From: Gordonibacter massiliensis (ex Traore et al. 2017)
Lineage (GTDB): Bacteria; Actinomycetota; Coriobacteriia; Coriobacteriales; Eggerthellaceae
Length of the DNA stretch: 64,000 nucleotides
NCBI GenBank assembly: GCA_900170005.1
Contig: LT827128.1
Coordinates: forward strand, 2,166,168 to 2,230,167
Direction of reading: 5' to 3'
The first letter of the stretch is position 1. Every line of letters begins with the position of its first letter. A program made the translations under genes and the position numbers. Below the pieces are notes generated by a model. It ran no database searches. It was not told the DNA's origin and worked only from the letters and a program-made list of their open reading frames with translations. Shown here piece after piece: positions 6,276 to 36,784 of this stretch.

Positions 6276-8567
6276 ATGAGCAGAAACATGACCCGCAGGT
6301 TCTTCGCCGTATTCGCCGCGTTCAGCCTGGCGGCATCGCTGGTCGGCGTCCCCGTCGGCGCCTATGCGGACGACGGCGCGAACGCAGAATCGTCCTCTCC
6401 CATCGTCATCGTGCACACCAACGACGTGCACTGCGCCGTGGACCAGGACGCCAAGAACGGGAACTTGGGGTACGCGAGCCTGGTTTCCTACGTGAAGGAA
6501 GCCGAGAGCACGTACGGAAACGATAATGTGGCGCTCGTGGACGCGGGCGACGCCGTGCAGGGCAGGGCCATGGGTACGCTCACGAAGGGCGAGTACCTCA
6601 TCGACATCATGAACCAGGCCGGATACGACATCGCCGTCCCCGGCAACCACGAGTTCGACTACGGCATGGACCAGTTCAACAAGCTCGTGGACAGGGCGAA
6701 CGCGGAATACGTATCCTGCAACTTCATGGACCTTCGCACGGGCAAGACGGTGTTCCCCAGCTACGTCACCAGAACATACGGTACCGGCCCGAACCCGGTC
6801 AAGGTGGCCTACGTGGGCATCTGCACGCCCGAGACGCTGACGAAGTCGTCGCCCGCCAGCTTCAAGGACCAAGACGGCAACTTCGTCTACGGGTTCTGCC
6901 AAGACGAGACCGGCGAGGCGTTCTACGCCGCCGTGCAGAACGCGGTGGACGCCGCGCGCGCCGCCGGTGCCGACTACGTGGTGGCCATCGGGCACCTGGG
7001 CCAGAAGGGCATCACCGAACGCTGGCGCAGCGACACGGTGGTGGCGAACACGCAGGGCATCGACGCGTTCATCGACGGCCACTCGCACGAAGCGTACGAG
7101 CAGGTCGTGAAGAACAAGGACGGCAAGGACGTGCCCTTGGCGCAAACCGGCACGCAGCTCGTGAACATAGGCGTGCTGACCATCGACCCCGCGACGAGCG
7201 CCGTCTCGGCCGCCGCCGTGAACGCGGCCGACGGCACCGAACTGGGCGAAGATGCGAAAGCCGACGACGCAGCGGAAACCGACGTGGACGGGATGCGCGC
7301 GGCGGACGGCGACGTGCGCCCTGCCGCAGACGATGCGCACGTCGACAGCGCGGACAAACCCGATTCGACCGATGAGAGACACGCCCTCGATCAAGGCGCA
7401 AAGGACCTCGGGCCGGAAAGCATCGCCGCAACCGGCGAGAGCGCCGGGGGCGCATCGCCCGGCACAACCGAGCCCGGCGCCGCTTCCAACAGCCTCGCTG
7501 CGCCCGCATCCGGCGCCTCCGAAAACGAGCCTCGCACGAACCTCGACGCACCGGTGTCCGAAGCAGGCGCGAACGTCCTCGAAACGGCCTCCAACGAGCA
7601 GGCGCCGACCGCAACCGGCAGCATCGAAGGAAAGCTCGTGGACTCATGGTCCGACCAAGACCCGGACATGTTGAAATACGTCAACGAGCTCGACGCGAAG
7701 ATCAAGGCGATAACCGACAAGAAGATAGGCACGTCGGACTACCGCCTGATGGCGCTCTACCCCGACAAGCAGTGGGCCGTGCGCGCGCAAGAAACCAACC
7801 TGGGCGATTTCGTGGCGGACGCCTACTACGCGTCCGCCGTGCGCGGCGGCCTGCAGGTCGACGCCGCCTTCGTGAACGGCGGGGGCATCCGCGCCGACGT
7901 CGAAGCGGGCGACGTGACCTACGGAAACCTCATCGACGTGCAACCCTACAACAACCAGCTGTGCGTGGCCGAGGTGCGCGGCCAGGATCTGCTCGATGCG
8001 CTGGAGATGGGCGCCCGCATGTATCCCGACCCGCTGGGCGGGTTCCTGCAGGTATCGGGCATAAGCTACACCATCCGCACCGACGTCCCCTCTTCGGTCG
8101 TCACGGACGCCACCAGCAACTTCGTGCGCGTGGACGGCCCGTACCGCGTGCAGAACGTGACCGTGGGCGGACGTCCGCTCGACGTGGGCAAGACGTACCG
8201 CGTCGCATCGCACACCTACTACCTTGAACAGGGAGGCGACGGCATGACCATGCTCAAGAGCGATGCCGTGACCTTGCTCGGATTGGACAACGAAGCGCTC
8301 ATCGACTTCATCACGAACGACTTGAACGGCACGATCGGCGCCGCGTACGCCAACCCGAACGGGCAGGGACGCATCGTCGTCAAGAACGGCCCCGACTCGA
8401 CCGGCGGGGACGCCACCGGCGGGGACGCCCTAGCCAAGACCGGAGACGGCACCGCAACCGCATCGGCGACCGCCTCGGCTGTCGCGCTCTCCGCACTGGC
8501 CTGCGCGCTGGGAGCGGCACGCATTGCGCGACGCGGCGAGAAGCGGAAGCAGGGCGTGCGCGGGTAA
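6276..8567 (+). CDS. Cell-wall-anchored 5'-nucleotidase / cyclic phosphodiesterase (UshA family)
   Basis: A 763-residue exported protein. Residues 1-31 form a signal peptide ending AYA/DD. The metallophosphatase domain has IVHTNDVH (Asp50, His52), VDAGDAVQG, GNHEFDYG and IDGHSHEAYEQ. The C-terminal substrate domain has NGGGIRADV and DVQPYNNQL. Between them, about residues 322-447, is a 126-residue acidic Ala/Asp/Glu/Ser-rich insert not expected in the family. The tail (from residue 719) has LAKTGDG, a hydrophobic stretch and RRGEKRK, a sortase-type signal in which Pro is replaced by Ala. Likely role: release of nucleosides and phosphate from extracellular nucleotides. The ATG at 6276 was chosen because it begins the signal peptide and follows GAAGG. 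Confidence 0.9.
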   Translation: MSRNMTRRFFAVFAAFSLAASLVGVPVGAYADDGANAESSSPIVIVHTNDVHCAVDQDAKNGNLGYASLVSYVKEAESTYGNDNVALVDAGDAVQGRAMGTLTKGEYLIDIMNQAGYDIAVPGNHEFDYGMDQFNKLVDRANAEYVSCNFMDLRTGKTVFPSYVTRTYGTGPNPVKVAYVGICTPETLTKSSPASFKDQDGNFVYGFCQDETGEAFYAAVQNAVDAARAAGADYVVAIGHLGQKGITERWRSDTVVANTQGIDAFIDGHSHEAYEQVVKNKDGKDVPLAQTGTQLVNIGVLTIDPATSAVSAAAVNAADGTELGEDAKADDAAETDVDGMRAADGDVRPAADDAHVDSADKPDSTDERHALDQGAKDLGPESIAATGESAGGASPGTTEPGAASNSLAAPASGASENEPRTNLDAPVSEAGANVLETASNEQAPTATGSIEGKLVDSWSDQDPDMLKYVNELDAKIKAITDKKIGTSDYRLMALYPDKQWAVRAQETNLGDFVADAYYASAVRGGLQVDAAFVNGGGIRADVEAGDVTYGNLIDVQPYNNQLCVAEVRGQDLLDALEMGARMYPDPLGGFLQVSGISYTIRTDVPSSVVTDATSNFVRVDGPYRVQNVTVGGRPLDVGKTYRVASHTYYLEQGGDGMTMLKSDAVTLLGLDNEALIDFITNDLNGTIGAAYANPNGQGRIVVKNGPDSTGGDATGGDALAKTGDGTATASATASAVALSALACALGAARIARRGEKRKQGVRG

Positions 8568-21895: not shown

Positions 21896-21944
21896 CGCCA
21901 CGAAGGCGCATCCGACGAGGGAAGAGGCTGCATGCCCGTGAACC

Positions 21945-22054
21945 TCCGTAGGGGCGCTCTCCAGAGCGCCCGTTCCGGCGAAGCCGGAAAAACAACCATG
22001 GGCCGCGTTTTCGCGCTTCGCGCGAACGGGCGCTCTGGAGAGCGCCCCTACGGA
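21945..22054. repeat. Palindromic element family B, complete copy 1
   Basis: The outer arms begin TCCGTAGGGGCGCTCTCC and end with the exact complement, 31 bp each. Inside are two small hairpins (TTCCGGCGAAGCCGGAA and TCGCGCTTCGCGCGA) separated by AACAACCATGGGCCGCG. A second complete copy is at 29852. Confidence 0.85.
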
Positions 22055-22129
22055 GCCACAGGAAGATTACCGTTGCGGGAAAGTTGCCGTTGCAGGGAAA
22101 TATCGCTCGAAGATTTGTCCCTTGCACAC

Positions 22130-23690: not shown

Positions 23691-25520
23691 ATGAGCTTGC
23701 GTAAGCGGGGCACATGGGGTAAGGGGCTCGTCGTCATCGCCTTCTGGGTGCTGGGTGCCGTCATCCTTATCTTCACGCTGTCGCAGGTGCGCGACTTCGC
23801 CGGCATCATCAACGACTCGGGCGTCGTGCGCGGCGGCACGCAGCGGGTGGTGAAGATGGAAGTGGCGGGCAAGTCGGCCCCGTCCACCGAGCAACGCGTG
23901 TCCTCGCTTCTGGAAAAGCTGACCGTCAACGAGCAGAACCGCCCGTACAAAGGGCCCGAAACCCACGAGTTCATGGACAAGCTTACGGCCGTGTCCAACC
24001 AGTGGAAGCTCATCGAGGACGAGATCGACGCCCTCGATCGCGGCGAGGGGTCGGTGAGCCGTCTTCTCGAACTGAGCGAGACGCACTTCACCCTCGCCGA
24101 CGAGATGGTGATGTCCGCCCAACAGCGCGCCGAGCACGACTTCCTGTGGATGGGCGCCATCTGCACCGTGCTGTTCCTGGCCGCCGCGACCATCATGCTC
24201 TTCATGCGCAACGACCGCATCTCGAAGCTCAAAACGGCTTACTTCACCGATACGCTCACCAAGCGCAAGAACATGCTCGCCTTCGAGGAGCAGGCGCAGC
24301 AGCTCGTGCCCGGCTCCGCCGGAGGCACGTACCTCGTGGCGTACACGAACATCTCGAACTTCCGCTACATCAACGAAACCTACGGCTACGATGCCGGCGA
24401 CCGGCTCATCATCACGCTGGCGCGCCTGCTGGACAACGCGTGCAAGCGCGACGAAGTGGCCGCCCACGGCAACGCGGACCACTTCGTGCTGCTCTTGCGC
24501 AACGAGCCCCAGCGCATCGAGAAGCTGTACGAGCACCTGGAGGAGAAGCTGCGCTCCGCTCCCGACCTGCATTTCAACGGTGTGCTTTCGCTCGGCTGCG
24601 GCGTGCGCGAGGTCGAGCAGGCCAGCGACAGCATCCCGCTTCTCGTGAGCGACGCCATCGCCGTGATGAAGGAGGCGCCCGCCGAAGGAGGCATAGCGCG
24701 CTACGACCAAGCGTTCCGCGACGCCGTCGACCTCAAGAACCGCATCGAGCGGCACGAAGACCACGCGCTGGCGAACCGCGAGTTCGCGCTGTACCTGCAG
24801 CCGAAGAACCGCCTGGCGAACGGCTCGCTCGCAGGCGCGGAGGCGCTCGTGCGTTGGGAATCGCCCGAACTGGGCTTCCTGCCGCCCAATTCGTTCATCC
24901 CCCTGTTCGAGAAGAACGGCTTCATCGTCCAGCTGGACTTCTACATGCTCAAGCGCGTCTGCCAAAGCTACCCGATGGCCCCCGCCTCCTCGGGCGAAGC
25001 GCTTGTCGTGTCCGTGAACTTCTCCCGCGTCACCATCCTGCGGGACGGCTTCGTCGAACGCCTCCTGCGCGTGGTGGACGGGGCCGGCGTTCCCCACGAA
25101 GCCATCGAGATCGAGATCACCGAGAGCGCGTTCATCATGGACGAGGACGCGGTCATCGCCAAACTCGAGATGCTCAAGGCCCTGGGGTTCCGCCTGGCCA
25201 TGGACGACTTCGGCACCGGCTACTCGTCGCTCAACCTGCTGCGCAAGCTTCCCATCGACGTGCTGAAGATCGACCGGGGCTTCCTGGCCGAGAACACGGA
25301 CGCCGAACGCTCGCGCTCGGTGCTCAAGGGCGTGATCGACATGGCGCGCGACCTGGGGCTGACCATCGTTTGCGAAGGCGTGGAAACCGAGGACCAGATC
25401 GCCATGCTGCGCGAGCTGGGCTGCCCCATCGCCCAAGGGTTCGTGTTCTCCAAGCCCTTGCCGGAACGCGAGTTCCGCAAGCTTTACGATATTCCGGACA
25501 GCGGTTCCGAGAGCCTCTGA
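23691..25520 (+). CDS. Membrane-bound degenerate-GGDEF / intact-EAL c-di-GMP phosphodiesterase
   Basis: 609 residues: TM helix (about 14-34), a 115-residue external sensor segment (GVVRGGTQRVVKME, type-IV-pili-methyl-accepting style), TM helix (about 150-170), GGDEF-like domain (185-340) and EAL domain (355-600). The GGDEF signature is replaced by GNADHF, so it is almost surely not a cyclase. The EAL domain has EALVRW, SVNFSR, EIEITES, MDDFGTGYSS, VLKIDRGF and CEGVETEDQ, covering the expected metal and catalytic residues, so hydrolysis of c-di-GMP is likely. AAGGAG precedes the ATG. The next c-di-GMP gene begins 38 bp later. Confidence 0.92.
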   Translation: MSLRKRGTWGKGLVVIAFWVLGAVILIFTLSQVRDFAGIINDSGVVRGGTQRVVKMEVAGKSAPSTEQRVSSLLEKLTVNEQNRPYKGPETHEFMDKLTAVSNQWKLIEDEIDALDRGEGSVSRLLELSETHFTLADEMVMSAQQRAEHDFLWMGAICTVLFLAAATIMLFMRNDRISKLKTAYFTDTLTKRKNMLAFEEQAQQLVPGSAGGTYLVAYTNISNFRYINETYGYDAGDRLIITLARLLDNACKRDEVAAHGNADHFVLLLRNEPQRIEKLYEHLEEKLRSAPDLHFNGVLSLGCGVREVEQASDSIPLLVSDAIAVMKEAPAEGGIARYDQAFRDAVDLKNRIERHEDHALANREFALYLQPKNRLANGSLAGAEALVRWESPELGFLPPNSFIPLFEKNGFIVQLDFYMLKRVCQSYPMAPASSGEALVVSVNFSRVTILRDGFVERLLRVVDGAGVPHEAIEIEITESAFIMDEDAVIAKLEMLKALGFRLAMDDFGTGYSSLNLLRKLPIDVLKIDRGFLAENTDAERSRSVLKGVIDMARDLGLTIVCEGVETEDQIAMLRELGCPIAQGFVFSKPLPEREFRKLYDIPDSGSESL

Positions 25521-25558: not shown

Positions 25559-28500
25559 ATGAGCAGCGACGTTTCGAACAACCCTTCGATGCACCGCCAT
25601 ACCTACGTCATAGACCGCGACTACCGCGTCGTGTACATGGACAAGGCGGCCCACCGCGTGTTCCCTGCAGGCCAGATAGGCGCGCTGTGCTACGAATCGT
25701 TCCGCGGCGCGAGCGAGCCGTGCAAGGACTGCCCGTGGCACGGCCACGAGCACGACGCCGCCACCCAAACGGTCATCTTCAGCGCGCGGCGCGACCTGTG
25801 GTACGAGATCACCTGCCTCGAAACCGACTGGTTCGACCGCGGCCCCTGCGTGCTGTTCTCGGGAAGGCCCATCACCGACCAGAGCCGCAGCCTGTTCGCC
25901 TCGCTCAGCGAGCCGTCGTCCTACGACGAGCTGTTCGAAATCAACATGACGAACGACTCCTACAAAGTGCTGTACACCGACCCCGATAAGTACGTCATGC
26001 CCGCGCTCGAGGGGAAGCTCAGCACCATGTTCGAGGACGTGCTGAACAACATGATCAACCCCGAAGACCGCGACCGCTTCCTCGAATTCTGGGACTTCGC
26101 CACCTTGACCGCCCGTCTCGAGCAGGCTGGCGGCGCCCTGCGCGGAGAGTTTCGCAAGCGCTTATGCGCCGGCGGCTGGGGATGGGCGGCCCAAACCGTC
26201 GTTCCCGTCAAACGCGGCGAGAACGGCGAAGCCGTGGTCATGTGCTTCATCTCCGACATCGACGCCGAAGTGAAAAGCCGCAAGGAACGCGCCGAGACCG
26301 CGCAGATACAGCGCTTGAGGGAGCGCGACCAGCTCACGGGCCTTTACAACGCCTCGACGCTGTACGAGAAGGCGGCCGAGCTGCTGGCGGTCCACCCCGA
26401 CCAGGACTACGAGGCCGTCTACTTGGACATCGAGCACTTCAAGCTGTTCAACGAATGGCACGGCCGGGAAGCGGGCGACAGCATGCTGCGCGCCATAGCC
26501 GACCGGCTCTCCGCCATCGCCCAGCGCTTCGATGGCGTGGCGGGGTATCTGGGAGGCGACGACTTCACCCTCGTGCTGCCCTGCGGCATCGTCACCAGCG
26601 AGAACATCGAGGAGCAGTTCAAGCTTCCGCCGTTCGACTCCGAGGACACGATAGGCTTCCGCCCCGCCATAGGCATCAGCTCCATCGATCGCGCGAACGG
26701 GTCGGTGAGCACCGCCTGCGACCACGCCATGCTGGCCATGGCCTCGGTAAAGGGGTCCTTCGCGCATCGCGCGGCCTGGTACGAGAACGCCATGTCCGAA
26801 GAGCTGGAGAGCGAGACCAAGACGCTGCTCGAGGTGCAGCAAGCGCTGAGGAGCCACGAGTTCGTGCTGTACTGGCAGCCCCAGTGCAACACCCGCACGG
26901 GCCGCATCGTGGGTTTGGAAGCCCTCGTGCGTTGGCAGCACCCGGAACGCGGCCTGGTCATGCCGGGCGACTTCATCCCCGTGCTCGAGCGCAACGGGTT
27001 CATCGCAAGCCTGGACCTGTACGTGTGGGACGAAGCCTGCCGGCACCTGCGCTCGTGGATCGATCGCGGCAAGCGTCCCATACCCGTGTCGGTGAACATA
27101 TCGCGGGCCGACCTCTACGCCATCGACGTGGTGGACACGCTCGAGAGCCTGGTGCAGAACTACGGTTTGGACCATCACCTGCTGGAGCTGGAGATAACCG
27201 AGAGCGCCTACGCCGAGGACGAGAAGATGGCCGAGGCCGTGGGCGAGCTGAAAAAGCTCGGCTTCACCATCCTCATGGACGACTTCGGCAGCGGGTACTC
27301 CTCGCTCAACATGCTGAAGGACATCACCGTCGACATCCTCAAGATAGACATGGGATTCCTGACCCGCGAGAGCGACGCCCAGCGCAGCGAGAGCATCCTC
27401 GAAGCCGTGGTGTCCATGGCGCGCCTCATGGACCTGCGCATCATCGCCGAGGGTGCCGAGACGAAGGAGCAGGTCGACTTCCTGCAGGATATCGGCTGCG
27501 ACTACGCCCAGGGCTACTATTTCCATCGCCCCATGGACACCTCGAAGCTCGAGGCCCTTATCAGCAACGACGACGCCGTCGACTACCGCGGCGTGCTCAG
27601 CCCCCTGATGGAGCTGATAGACATGAGCGCCCTGCTGAACGAGGACGAGACCAGCCGCACCATCGTCGACAACCTCATCGGCGGCATGGCCGTGTACGCC
27701 GCCTACCCCGATCATTTCGAGCTGCTGCAGGTCAACAACGCGTACTACCGCGTCACCGGCTGCAACTCCGTCGACCTGAGGGAGCGGCAACACCATATAT
27801 CCAAGCAGGTGCACCCCGACGACCTGCCCATCGTCATGGATCTGTTCGCCCAGGCCGAGCAGCATCCCGTGTCGGGCGCCGAGGGAACGTTCCGCCGCTA
27901 CCGCCTCAACGGCGACCTCATGTGGCTGCGCATGAAGGCGTTCTTCCTCAGGCGCGAGCAGAGCCGCAACATATTCTTCGCCTCGCTGGCCGACGTGACC
28001 GAGCAGAAGGAGCAGGAAGAGGAGCTGCGCTCGTCCCAATCGGCGCTCAGCAACGTGCTGGGCCTGCCCTTCGCCGAGAAGAGCCTGGACGACATGACCA
28101 CCGAGAACCGCCAGGCGGCCGCGCAGGTGTTCATGCAGAACGTGCCCGGCGGGCTCATCGGCGGGTACTGCGAAGACGGCTTCCCGTTGCTGTTCGCCAA
28201 CGAAGAGGTCGCCCGCATGGCGGGCTTCGACACGTCGGAGGAGTTCGTCGAGGCGATAGACGGGATGGTGGCCAACTCCATCCACCCCGACGATATGCCC
28301 CAGGTGATGAAGGACATCGGCCCCGAGTACTACGAAGGGCTCGAATACACCACCCAATACCGCATGCCCCGCAAGGACGGAACTTGGTTCTGGGTGGCCG
28401 ACCATGGCCGCATCGTCCGCACGAAGAACAACCGCCTGGCCATCGCCAGCGTGTGCATAGACATCGACAACACCGTGAGCATGCAGAAGCAGCTGGCGGT

Positions 28501-28936
28501 GGAGGACGAGATACTCTACCGCATCATCCGCCGCGCCAACCTGAACGCGTGGATATACGACATCGAGCACGACTCCATCACGTTCCAGAACCTTTCGTCG
28601 AACGGGATCGCGTCGCTGCTGGCCCAAGCCGACGCTCCGAGCGCCGCGTCGAAGGACGCCGCCGGCGCCGAAGCGCTGCCCGACGACGTGGGGCGCATCC
28701 TCAAGCGCATGGCGCGCGAGGTGCAGTGGGGCCGCAACGTCGTGCGCGACATCGAGGTGCAAACCGACGATGACGAGCTCATGAAGCTACGCGTCACCTG
28801 CGAAGCCGTGCTCGATCCCAGCGGCAAGCCCGCGCGCGTCATAGGCTACATGGAGGAATCGAGGCTCGACCAGCCCGCCTCCCACCCCCCGCCTCCCACC
28901 CCTCCGCCACCAGCAGCCGCCTGCTCGAGATGCTGA
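25559..28936 (+). pseudogene. 5' part of a split PAS-GGDEF-EAL-PAS gene (frameshifted)
   Basis: 1125 codons: a PAS-like domain (10-115) with CYESFRGASEPCKDCP, a second PAS (120-230), GGDEF with YLGGDDF (about 328-333; fourth residue Asp instead of Glu), EAL (420-680) with EALVRWQH, SVNISR, ELEITES, MDDFGSGYSS, ILKIDMGF and AEGAETKEQ, then three PAS domains (about 695-1115). The reading frame then runs into HPPPPTPPPPAAACSRC and a stop, which is unlike protein. The cause is an exact 14-bp tandem duplication at 28874-28901; removing one copy restores a 1419-residue protein joined to the ORF at 28930. The fragment alone would keep the PDE module, so it may still be functional. ATG at 25559 follows TAGGAG. 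Confidence 0.85.
28874..28901 (+). repeat. Perfect 14-bp tandem duplication causing a frameshift
   Basis: CCCGCCTCCCACCC occurs twice head-to-tail (28874-28887 and 28888-28901). With one unit the codons read DQPASHPSATSSRLLEMLKG straight into the downstream ORF. With two units the frame shifts and stops at 28936. Confidence 0.95.
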
Positions 28937-29832
28937 AAGGCAAGGCGGTGGAGCACTGGTACGTCAACCTGAGCACGAGAAGCTTCCTCAGCGAAGCCGA
29001 TCGCAAGGCGTGGCGCAAGGCAACGGGCATCGTCTTGGAAGACTGGTCGGGCATAACGCCCGAAGACCGCATCGGCGAGATCGTCCGTTCGCAGAAGGAC
29101 GCGAACGCCGTCGCCTCTTTCCTGAACTTCGACGCCATGCTCGCGCAGTTCGAAAAGGGCAACCGGTTCGGCTCCCTCGAATACCGCCAGTCGAGCGAAC
29201 AGGGCGAGCGGTGGATGGAGCTGAGCTACCGTCTGATACGCCTCGAGGACGGCGGAAGCGTGTTCGCCCATATCTCGGTGTCCGATATCGACGAGCGCAA
29301 GCGCCGCGAGCTGGAGCTGGAGGACAAGGCCGCGCACGACGCGCTCACCGGCCTCATGAACCGGCAAACCGCTTCCGCGCTGCTGCCGAACGCCCTGGAG
29401 GAGACCTTGCGCAAGGGCACGTCGGGAGCGCTCATCATCGTCGATCTGGACGACTTCAAGCAGGTGAACGACGAGTACGGGCATTTGGCGGGCGACGTGG
29501 TGCTGTCGGGCATCGGCCGGCATCTGAAAGGCGCCTTCCGCAAGAACGACCTGGTCTGCCGCTGGGGCGGCGACGAGTTCATCGTGTACTGCGACGACAT
29601 CAGCCGCAGCAGCCTGTCGCGCCGGGTGGGCACGCTCTGCGACACGCCGTGGCGGACGCAGGTGCAGTGCGGCACGTCCATCGAGCTGTCCGCGTCGGCC
29701 GGCATCGCGCTGGTACCGGGCCACGGCTCCCGGTTCACCGAAGTGTACGAGCGCGCCGACGAGGCTCTGTACTGCGCAAAGTCGGACGGCAAAGCGCACT
29801 TCCGCTTCTACGAGGGCGCCTCAGGCAAGTAG
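28930..29832 (+). pseudogene. 3' part of the split gene: PAS-GGDEF with intact active site
   Basis: 300 codons from the first ATG. The frame is also protein-like upstream of this ATG (TSSRLLEM), showing it belongs to the preceding ORF. Residues 1-125 are PAS-like (EHWYVNLSTRSF ... ISVSDIDERKRRELE). Residues 135-300 are GGDEF: DALTGLMNRQT, IIVDLDDFKQVNDEYGHLAGD, RWGGDEF (GGDEF at 213-217) and ADEALYCAKSDGK. Thus the intact cyclase signature is separated from the PDE half. The ATG overlaps the stop of the first ORF (ATGCTGA), so reinitiation could give a free cyclase fragment. Confidence 0.85.
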
Positions 29833-29851
29833 GGGGTCGTCTAGGTTGACT

Positions 29852-29957
29852 CGTAGGGGCGCTCTCCAGAGCGCCCGTTCCGGCGAAGCCGGAACAGCAA
29901 CCAAGGGCCGCGTTCTCGCGCTTCGCGCGAGCGGGCGCTCTGGAGAGCGCCCCTACG
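29852..29957. repeat. Palindromic element family B, complete copy 2
   Basis: Outer arms CGTAGGGGCGCTCTCC... and ...GGAGAGCGCCCCTACG, with the same two inner hairpins and the spacer CAGCAACCAAGGGCCGCG. Compared with the copy at 21945 it differs at only a few spacer positions. Confidence 0.85.
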
Positions 29958-30031
29958 GAATCGGTCCGAGCGTCAAACCGGCGGCGCAGGAGTCGGCCGC
30001 GCCGACCGAACGCCGGCGGCGGCTGCGGCGG

Positions 30032-30919
30032 CTACACGCCCAGGCCCACCGTCATGTGCATCATGTAGAAGGCGAAGCGCATGACGAAGATCCCGGCCAG
30101 CGCGAGCGCACCGGCCGTCACGGCGCGGCCGACCGTCAGCGAGCGAGCTTTCTCGCCACGCGCGCAGAGAACCTGGGCGTCCACGCCGACGCCCGCGAGC
30201 GCGAGCGCACCGAACACCGCGATCATCAGGCCGTAGTACGGCACGAGGTCGGCCGCCGACACGAACGAGTTCTCGATGCGGGGCAACGCGGCGCTCTGCA
30301 GCCCGAACGACACGAGGTTCGCCGCCAGCGCCGTCGCGGACAGCGCCACGAGCACGCGCCCGAACCGCCCCTCCACCGGCCGGTAGCGCGCGGCGCGCAA
30401 ACCCACCACGGCGAGCAAGGGCCCGCCCACCAGCGCGTTGAGCCACAGGTTCAGCGGCACGTACACCGTGTACCACGACACGATGGTCTCGGCCGCGTAA
30501 GCGAACGCCACCGACGTGACGAACACGACGCCCGCCACCATGGCCAACGCCATCCACCCGCGCTGCAAGCCCGTGCGCGGTTGCTGCGAGAACGAGTAGA
30601 GCCAGTACACCCCCGCCAGCGCCAGGAACACCACGGCGCAGAACACCTCGGTGGACAGCGGGCTGCGGCCCACGCCCAAGAACACGTACAGGGCGTTCGC
30701 CGGATTGCCCAGGTGGGTGGCCGAAGCCACCAGCCCCACCATGGACGTGACGAGCGGAATGCTGAGGAACTGGTTGATGCGCCGCCTGACGTCGGCAGGC
30801 AGGCTGCCGCGCAGAAGCGGCAGGCCCATGAGGATGAACGCGACGACGCCCGACGGCGCGAGCGTCGTGAACAAGACGAGCGTGATCTCGCCGAATGCGG
30901 TGTTCACCCCCGACAGCAC
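30032..30919 (-). CDS. DmsC-family membrane anchor, second copy in the dms operon
   Basis: About 291-295 residues with eight hydrophobic helices. The N-terminal NTAFGEITLVLFTTLAPSG matches the DmsC-type anchor at 32533 (EAAFAELPLALFTTLAPMG). DmsC proteins anchor DmsAB to the membrane and oxidise menaquinol. It is the last gene of the dmsA-dmsB-dmsC-torD operon, 7 bp after the torD stop. The start is GTG in either case: 30919, or 30907 if aligned with the other DmsC copy. An operon with two anchors is unusual; possible partners are the orphan DmsB at 35899 or an unlinked DmsAB. Confidence 0.85.
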   Translation of the reverse strand: MLSGVNTAFGEITLVLFTTLAPSGVVAFILMGLPLLRGSLPADVRRRINQFLSIPLVTSMVGLVASATHLGNPANALYVFLGVGRSPLSTEVFCAVVFLALAGVYWLYSFSQQPRTGLQRGWMALAMVAGVVFVTSVAFAYAAETIVSWYTVYVPLNLWLNALVGGPLLAVVGLRAARYRPVEGRFGRVLVALSATALAANLVSFGLQSAALPRIENSFVSAADLVPYYGLMIAVFGALALAGVGVDAQVLCARGEKARSLTVGRAVTAGALALAGIFVMRFAFYMMHMTVGLGV

Positions 30920-36513: not shown

Positions 36514-36784
36514 GCTCTTGTCCTTTCGCCAGCCTTGCAACATGGTATCGTCAAACGCAACGACAACAAACGAGGTCAGGTATATTCGCGGTATTCTGTG
36601 GCCGCGTCGTTGCCGCGTCGTTGAGCTGCGAAAGCGCTTCCACGACGAGAAACGGCGCCGTTTTCGACGCAACGGCGCGGAAACTCGATCGCTCTTCGTT
36701 ACCGTTCGCCCCCGCGCGCCTGGAGGGCGGGCAACTGGGTTATACTTCACGCTTGCACCGGCCGTAGGCGATCAAGGACCATCC
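36514..36784. other. Divergent promoter region of orphan dmsB and luxR
   Basis: 271 bp. TATACT at 36741-36746 is a likely -10 for the regulator gene. A direct repeat GCCGCGTCGTTG occurs twice (36600-36625). TATATT at 36581 may serve the other strand. Confidence 0.45.

Follow-up and report, generated by a model that had tools for sequence, protein, structure and literature searches.

An exact 14-bp tandem duplication, probably recent, frame-shifts an ancestral phosphodiesterase–diguanylate cyclase gene in a Gordonibacter genome

The phnE gene of Escherichia coli K-12 is cryptic because of an 8-bp insertion and reverts by slippage, and most E. coli strains carry the gene intact (PMC6469041). 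In Clostridioides difficile, the c-di-GMP phosphodiesterases pdcB and pdcC are phase-variable through site-specific promoter inversion (PMC11868660). Our literature search found no c-di-GMP gene reported to contain a tandem duplication, and c-di-GMP biology seems to have been little studied in the bacterial group considered here. Here we describe a gene for a protein with both c-di-GMP modules that is interrupted by an exact repeat, and compare it with these systems and with the structurally characterized proteins MorA (tandem GGDEF-EAL; PDB 4rnh, 4rnf) and PA0861 (PAS-GGDEF-EAL; 5xgd).

The repeat lies in a 64-kb stretch of Gordonibacter DNA, which we call the window. Two identical copies of the 14-mer CCCGCCTCCCACCC stand back to back at 28874-28887 and 28888-28901, confirming the exact contiguous duplication claimed in a preliminary description of this DNA. 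A G precedes the repeat and a C follows, and one extra matching base extends the repeat to a 29-bp tract, giving 1 bp of microhomology. A genome-wide pattern search found the 28-bp two-unit pattern only once in the 3,948,172-bp genome. The frame that starts at the ATG at 25559 reads GAC CAG CCC GCC TCC CAC on entering the repeat and, shifted, CCC CCG CCT CCC ACC CCT CCG CCA CCA (PPPPTPPPP) on leaving it, before meeting a TGA at 28934-28936, which bears out the stop at 28936 that had been ascribed to the two copies. With one unit the frame runs uninterrupted for 1419 aa, as had also been claimed, and this is the length of the intact gene in Gordonibacter sp. 28C. The features of the locus are as follows.

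28874..28901, plus strand: exact tandem duplication, 2 x CCCGCCTCCCACCC, read from the sequence; a single unit is present in Gordonibacter sp. 28C.
28885..28891, plus strand: slippery-like heptamer C CCC CCG, made by the repeat junction (from the codon list).
25559..28936, plus strand: 5' half, 1125 aa, with PAS, degenerate GGDEF (YLGGDDF), intact EAL and PAS repeats (from the ORF, Pfam and alignment with MorA).
28930..29832, plus strand: 3' half, 300 aa, with a PAS-like sensor and an intact GGDEF (RWGGDEF, RKND I-site) (from the ORF, Pfam and AlphaFold2).
23691..25520, plus strand: GGDEF-EAL gene of 609 aa, upstream and in the same direction; 28C has it intact and equally long.

The upstream GGDEF-EAL gene probably belongs to the same operon as the split gene. 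A palindromic element of about 104 bp with ends GTAGGGGCGCTCTCCAGAGCGCC, REP- or MITE-like in character, occurs twice in this neighbourhood (window 21944-22055 and 29852-29959). Matches to the GTAGGGGCGCTCTCCAGAGCGCC end number 112 in the window genome, 47 in Gordonibacter sp. 28C and 18 in a third Gordonibacter, and none was found in two other Gordonibacter genomes. A Y1 transposase (PF01797) was not found in the window genome, and each of four other Gordonibacter genomes has one to three.

The catalytic motifs are whole on both sides of the break. Aligned to MorA, the EAL domain of the 5' half (Pfam EAL, 3.1e-68) retains the EAL motif and the conserved E, N, E, DD, K, E and Q, while the 3' half carries the diguanylate cyclase signatures RWGGDEF, DLDDFKQVND and RKND (RxxD I-site), with a Pfam GGDEF match of 9.2e-40. 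This supports the earlier proposal that an intact EAL module has been separated from an intact RWGGDEF module. The domain order proposed for the joined protein, PAS-GGDEF-EAL-PAS-GGDEF, also stood, with two amendments: the first GGDEF departs from the canonical signature, reading YLGGDDF and having NE in place of ND, and a sensor domain precedes the last GGDEF. An AlphaFold2 model of the 3' half (mean pLDDT 86.8) places a PAS-like sensor at residues 6-119, followed by GGDEF, and its best structural matches were the PAS-GGDEF-EAL protein PA0861 and GGDEF domains. The frame break falls in a variable interdomain linker, after the PAS repeats and before the C-terminal sensor-GGDEF, and both products could fold; the 5' half ends in the frame-shifted tail PPPPTPPPPAAACSRC.

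The preliminary description had taken the host to be E. lenta. This identity was rejected, because the closest genome with the locus is that of Gordonibacter sp. 28C, of the same genus. At the same site 28C has a single unit, CAGCCCGCCGCCCACCCCTCCGCG, and its orthologue is one unbroken gene of 1419 residues. A family-wide search combined with ORF extraction gave 15 orthologues outside the window genome, 13 of which encode the EAL and the C-terminal GGDEF in a single uninterrupted frame; the split form was seen in the window alone, and none of the fused orthologues has a frameshift. The one-unit gene of 28C, together with the fused frames across the family, indicates that the fusion is ancestral, in agreement with the earlier claim that the duplication broke a single gene. 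In the other two orthologues (G001 and G068) the cyclase half is gone, with no GGDEF coding sequence in the following 1.5 kb, suggesting that this half is dispensable. The DNA just past the shortened gene of G001 (G001:C9) resembles the reductase-subunit gene that lies downstream of the locus in the window. The repeat is absent wherever the pre-sensor linker could be read (28C and six other orthologues), and the linker sequence differs there. A DNA search at the level of the order added no useful orthologue, and a scan of viral contigs found no copy of the locus. Among the genomes compared, the duplication is private to the window lineage.

Both halves show purifying selection, the comparison of the window with 28C giving a dN/dS of 0.14 (5' half) and 0.16 (3' half). 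When G004 served as the outgroup, 9 amino-acid changes in the 3' half fell on the window branch and 7 on the 28C branch; decay of the 3' half was therefore rejected, since change has not accelerated on the window branch. Across about 1400 aligned codons we found no other indel or frameshift, so that, as in a phnE-type case, the orthologues are intact and the lesion is the sole one in the gene. The low dN/dS and the lack of decay imply either that the duplication is recent or that both halves are still functional. The duplication is probably recent, a dating drawn solely from the absence of decay, and an old split in which both halves stayed functional through reinitiation would give equally low dN/dS.

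Taken together, the evidence makes it likely that a recent exact 14-bp duplication frame-shifted an ancestral phosphodiesterase–diguanylate cyclase gene, most probably as an incidental or culture-selected change and not as a maintained switch. The duplication is a real mutation, reversible in principle, as had been argued from a unit length that 3 does not divide. The second option of the preliminary description, a mutation that this strain acquired recently, is now the best supported, given the lack of decay and the one-unit sister gene. Replication slippage or a similar event would have duplicated the 14 bp in the stretch that links the PAS repeats to the sensor-GGDEF, and the resulting frameshift would leave an EAL protein of full length that ends in a short, false, proline-rich tail. 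The cyclase would be lost, or produced in small amounts as a protein of its own through reinitiation at the overlapping ATG, and rare -1 slippage at C CCC CCG might rejoin the frames in traces, with a five-residue insert. Locally, the balance would shift from cyclase towards phosphodiesterase and control in cis would disappear, and losing one unit would restore the gene, as in phnE of E. coli K-12. Any effect should be confined to the split protein's own pathway, because the window genome has about 45 GGDEF and 20 EAL domain matches; a genome so equipped does not fit a switch that governs c-di-GMP signalling in general.

One alternative is that the gene has undergone stable fission, fixed in the species, into two proteins, with the cyclase half made by termination-reinitiation where the two frames meet:

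28930..28936, plus strand: ATGCTGA, the shifted 5' stop over the first possible start of the 3' half, a 7-nt overlap read from the sequence.

This heptanucleotide is a possible termination-reinitiation site for the 300-residue sensor-GGDEF half. Termination-reinitiation has been linked to stop/start overlaps of -8 to +6 nt, a range into which the 7-nt stop/ATG overlap falls, but overlaps of 7 nt are not the common form of coupling (PMC10666635). In favour of fission, too, the sensor domain is complete, and its first predicted strand comes just after the beginning of the 3' ORF. However, the codons ATG CTG AAA, which 28C shares, produce the overlap incidentally, so that it provides no evidence of selection, and no Shine-Dalgarno-like sequence was seen for this start. 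A scan of 28500-30050 found no internal sigma-70 type promoter for the 3' half, although scans of this kind may cover this phylum poorly. The purifying selection on the 5' and 3' halves alike agrees with fission, but recency accounts for that constraint equally well. We consider stable fission unlikely.

Equally unlikely is a phase-variable switch, in which frequent gain and loss of the 14-bp unit would mix cells carrying the fused phosphodiesterase–cyclase with cells carrying the split form. The locus does have the form of a contingency locus, an exact head-to-tail repeat in a coding region with a unit that is not a multiple of 3 (2 x 14 bp), and both halves are still intact; pdcB and pdcC supply a precedent for phase-variable c-di-GMP phosphodiesterases, although theirs is by promoter inversion (PMC11868660). 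Two units also create a further motif:

28874..28902, minus (template) strand: G-quadruplex-type motif GGGGTGGGAGGCGGGGGGTGGG, formed only with two units and absent from the one-unit site of 28C.

On the template, such a motif could raise slippage, but the window genome has about 4.5 motifs of this type per 64 kb, and a hairpin in the G-rich strand was no more stable than in shuffled sequences. Two copies are the minimal repeat, and none of the relatives whose linker could be read has it, although tandem-repeat phase variation would lead one to expect the repeat in relatives. Comparable exact tandems also occur elsewhere in the same genome. The window has 5 exact tandems with a unit of at least 10, against 0.26 per 64 kb in order-3 Markov versions of it, and units of at least 14 appeared 0 times in 50 such runs; a 400-kb sample of the genome gave 7 exact tandem duplications with a unit of at least 10. 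This class of mutation is therefore ordinary here. The evolved on/off switch raised as a possibility in the preliminary description is thus left unsupported. Still less probable is the full composite, a reversible switch between one polypeptide and two proteins in which the cyclase is reinitiated at ATGCTGA, the cell retains both activities while their coupling is lost, and the self-made quadruplex-type motif destabilises the repeat.

Two further duplications of this kind were observed in the window. One is an exact 11-bp tandem duplication, GCCGCGTCGTT, at 36601-36623, which lies near the divergent start regions of a ferredoxin-type gene (minus strand) and a gene for a LuxR-type membrane regulator (plus strand). 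The other, at 8400-8429, has an exact repeat of 15 bp in tandem that keeps the frame, close to the C-terminal end of the gene for a 5'-nucleotidase-like surface protein.

An assembly or sequencing artefact, with one unit in the cell, is very improbable: G-rich tracts such as this one are hard for some sequencing platforms, but errors do not usually take the form of an exact 14-bp duplication, the genome is a single contig and 99.8% complete, and there is no second frameshift in 1400 flanking codons.

A recent duplication in an ancestral fused gene is best read as a mutation of a known kind, a revertible strain- or species-specific frameshift. One caution follows from it, namely that the copy of the gene in this genome is frame-shifted while relatives have it intact, and the 14-bp repeat makes the locus a ready marker for measuring slippage. 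Should cultures prove to mix different copy numbers, the locus would offer an unusual phase variation that uncouples opposed c-di-GMP activities in an anaerobic gut actinobacterium.

Among the known systems, the GGDEF-EAL core matches MorA with an E-value of 2.6e-71 and retains the catalytic residues of the EAL, and the 3' half is predicted to have a PAS-GGDEF fold similar to that of PA0861. In contrast to both proteins, the GGDEF paired with the EAL is here degenerate, and the intact one comes after the PAS repeats, which is why the duplication can separate the two activities. The comparison with pdcB and pdcC of C. difficile also involves a gut bacterium, with a change in DNA that would alter one c-di-GMP enzyme, but those genes switch by promoter inversion, whereas the change described here is a tandem repeat inside the coding sequence, known from one genome. 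In phnE, as at the present locus, the reading frame of a gene that almost every relative keeps intact is shifted by a short, strain-specific insertion whose length 3 does not divide. The phnE insertion is of 8 bp and its reversion has been observed, whereas the one described here is of 14 bp and lies in an interdomain linker between halves that should both be able to fold; like phnE, the window gene could revert by losing the insertion.
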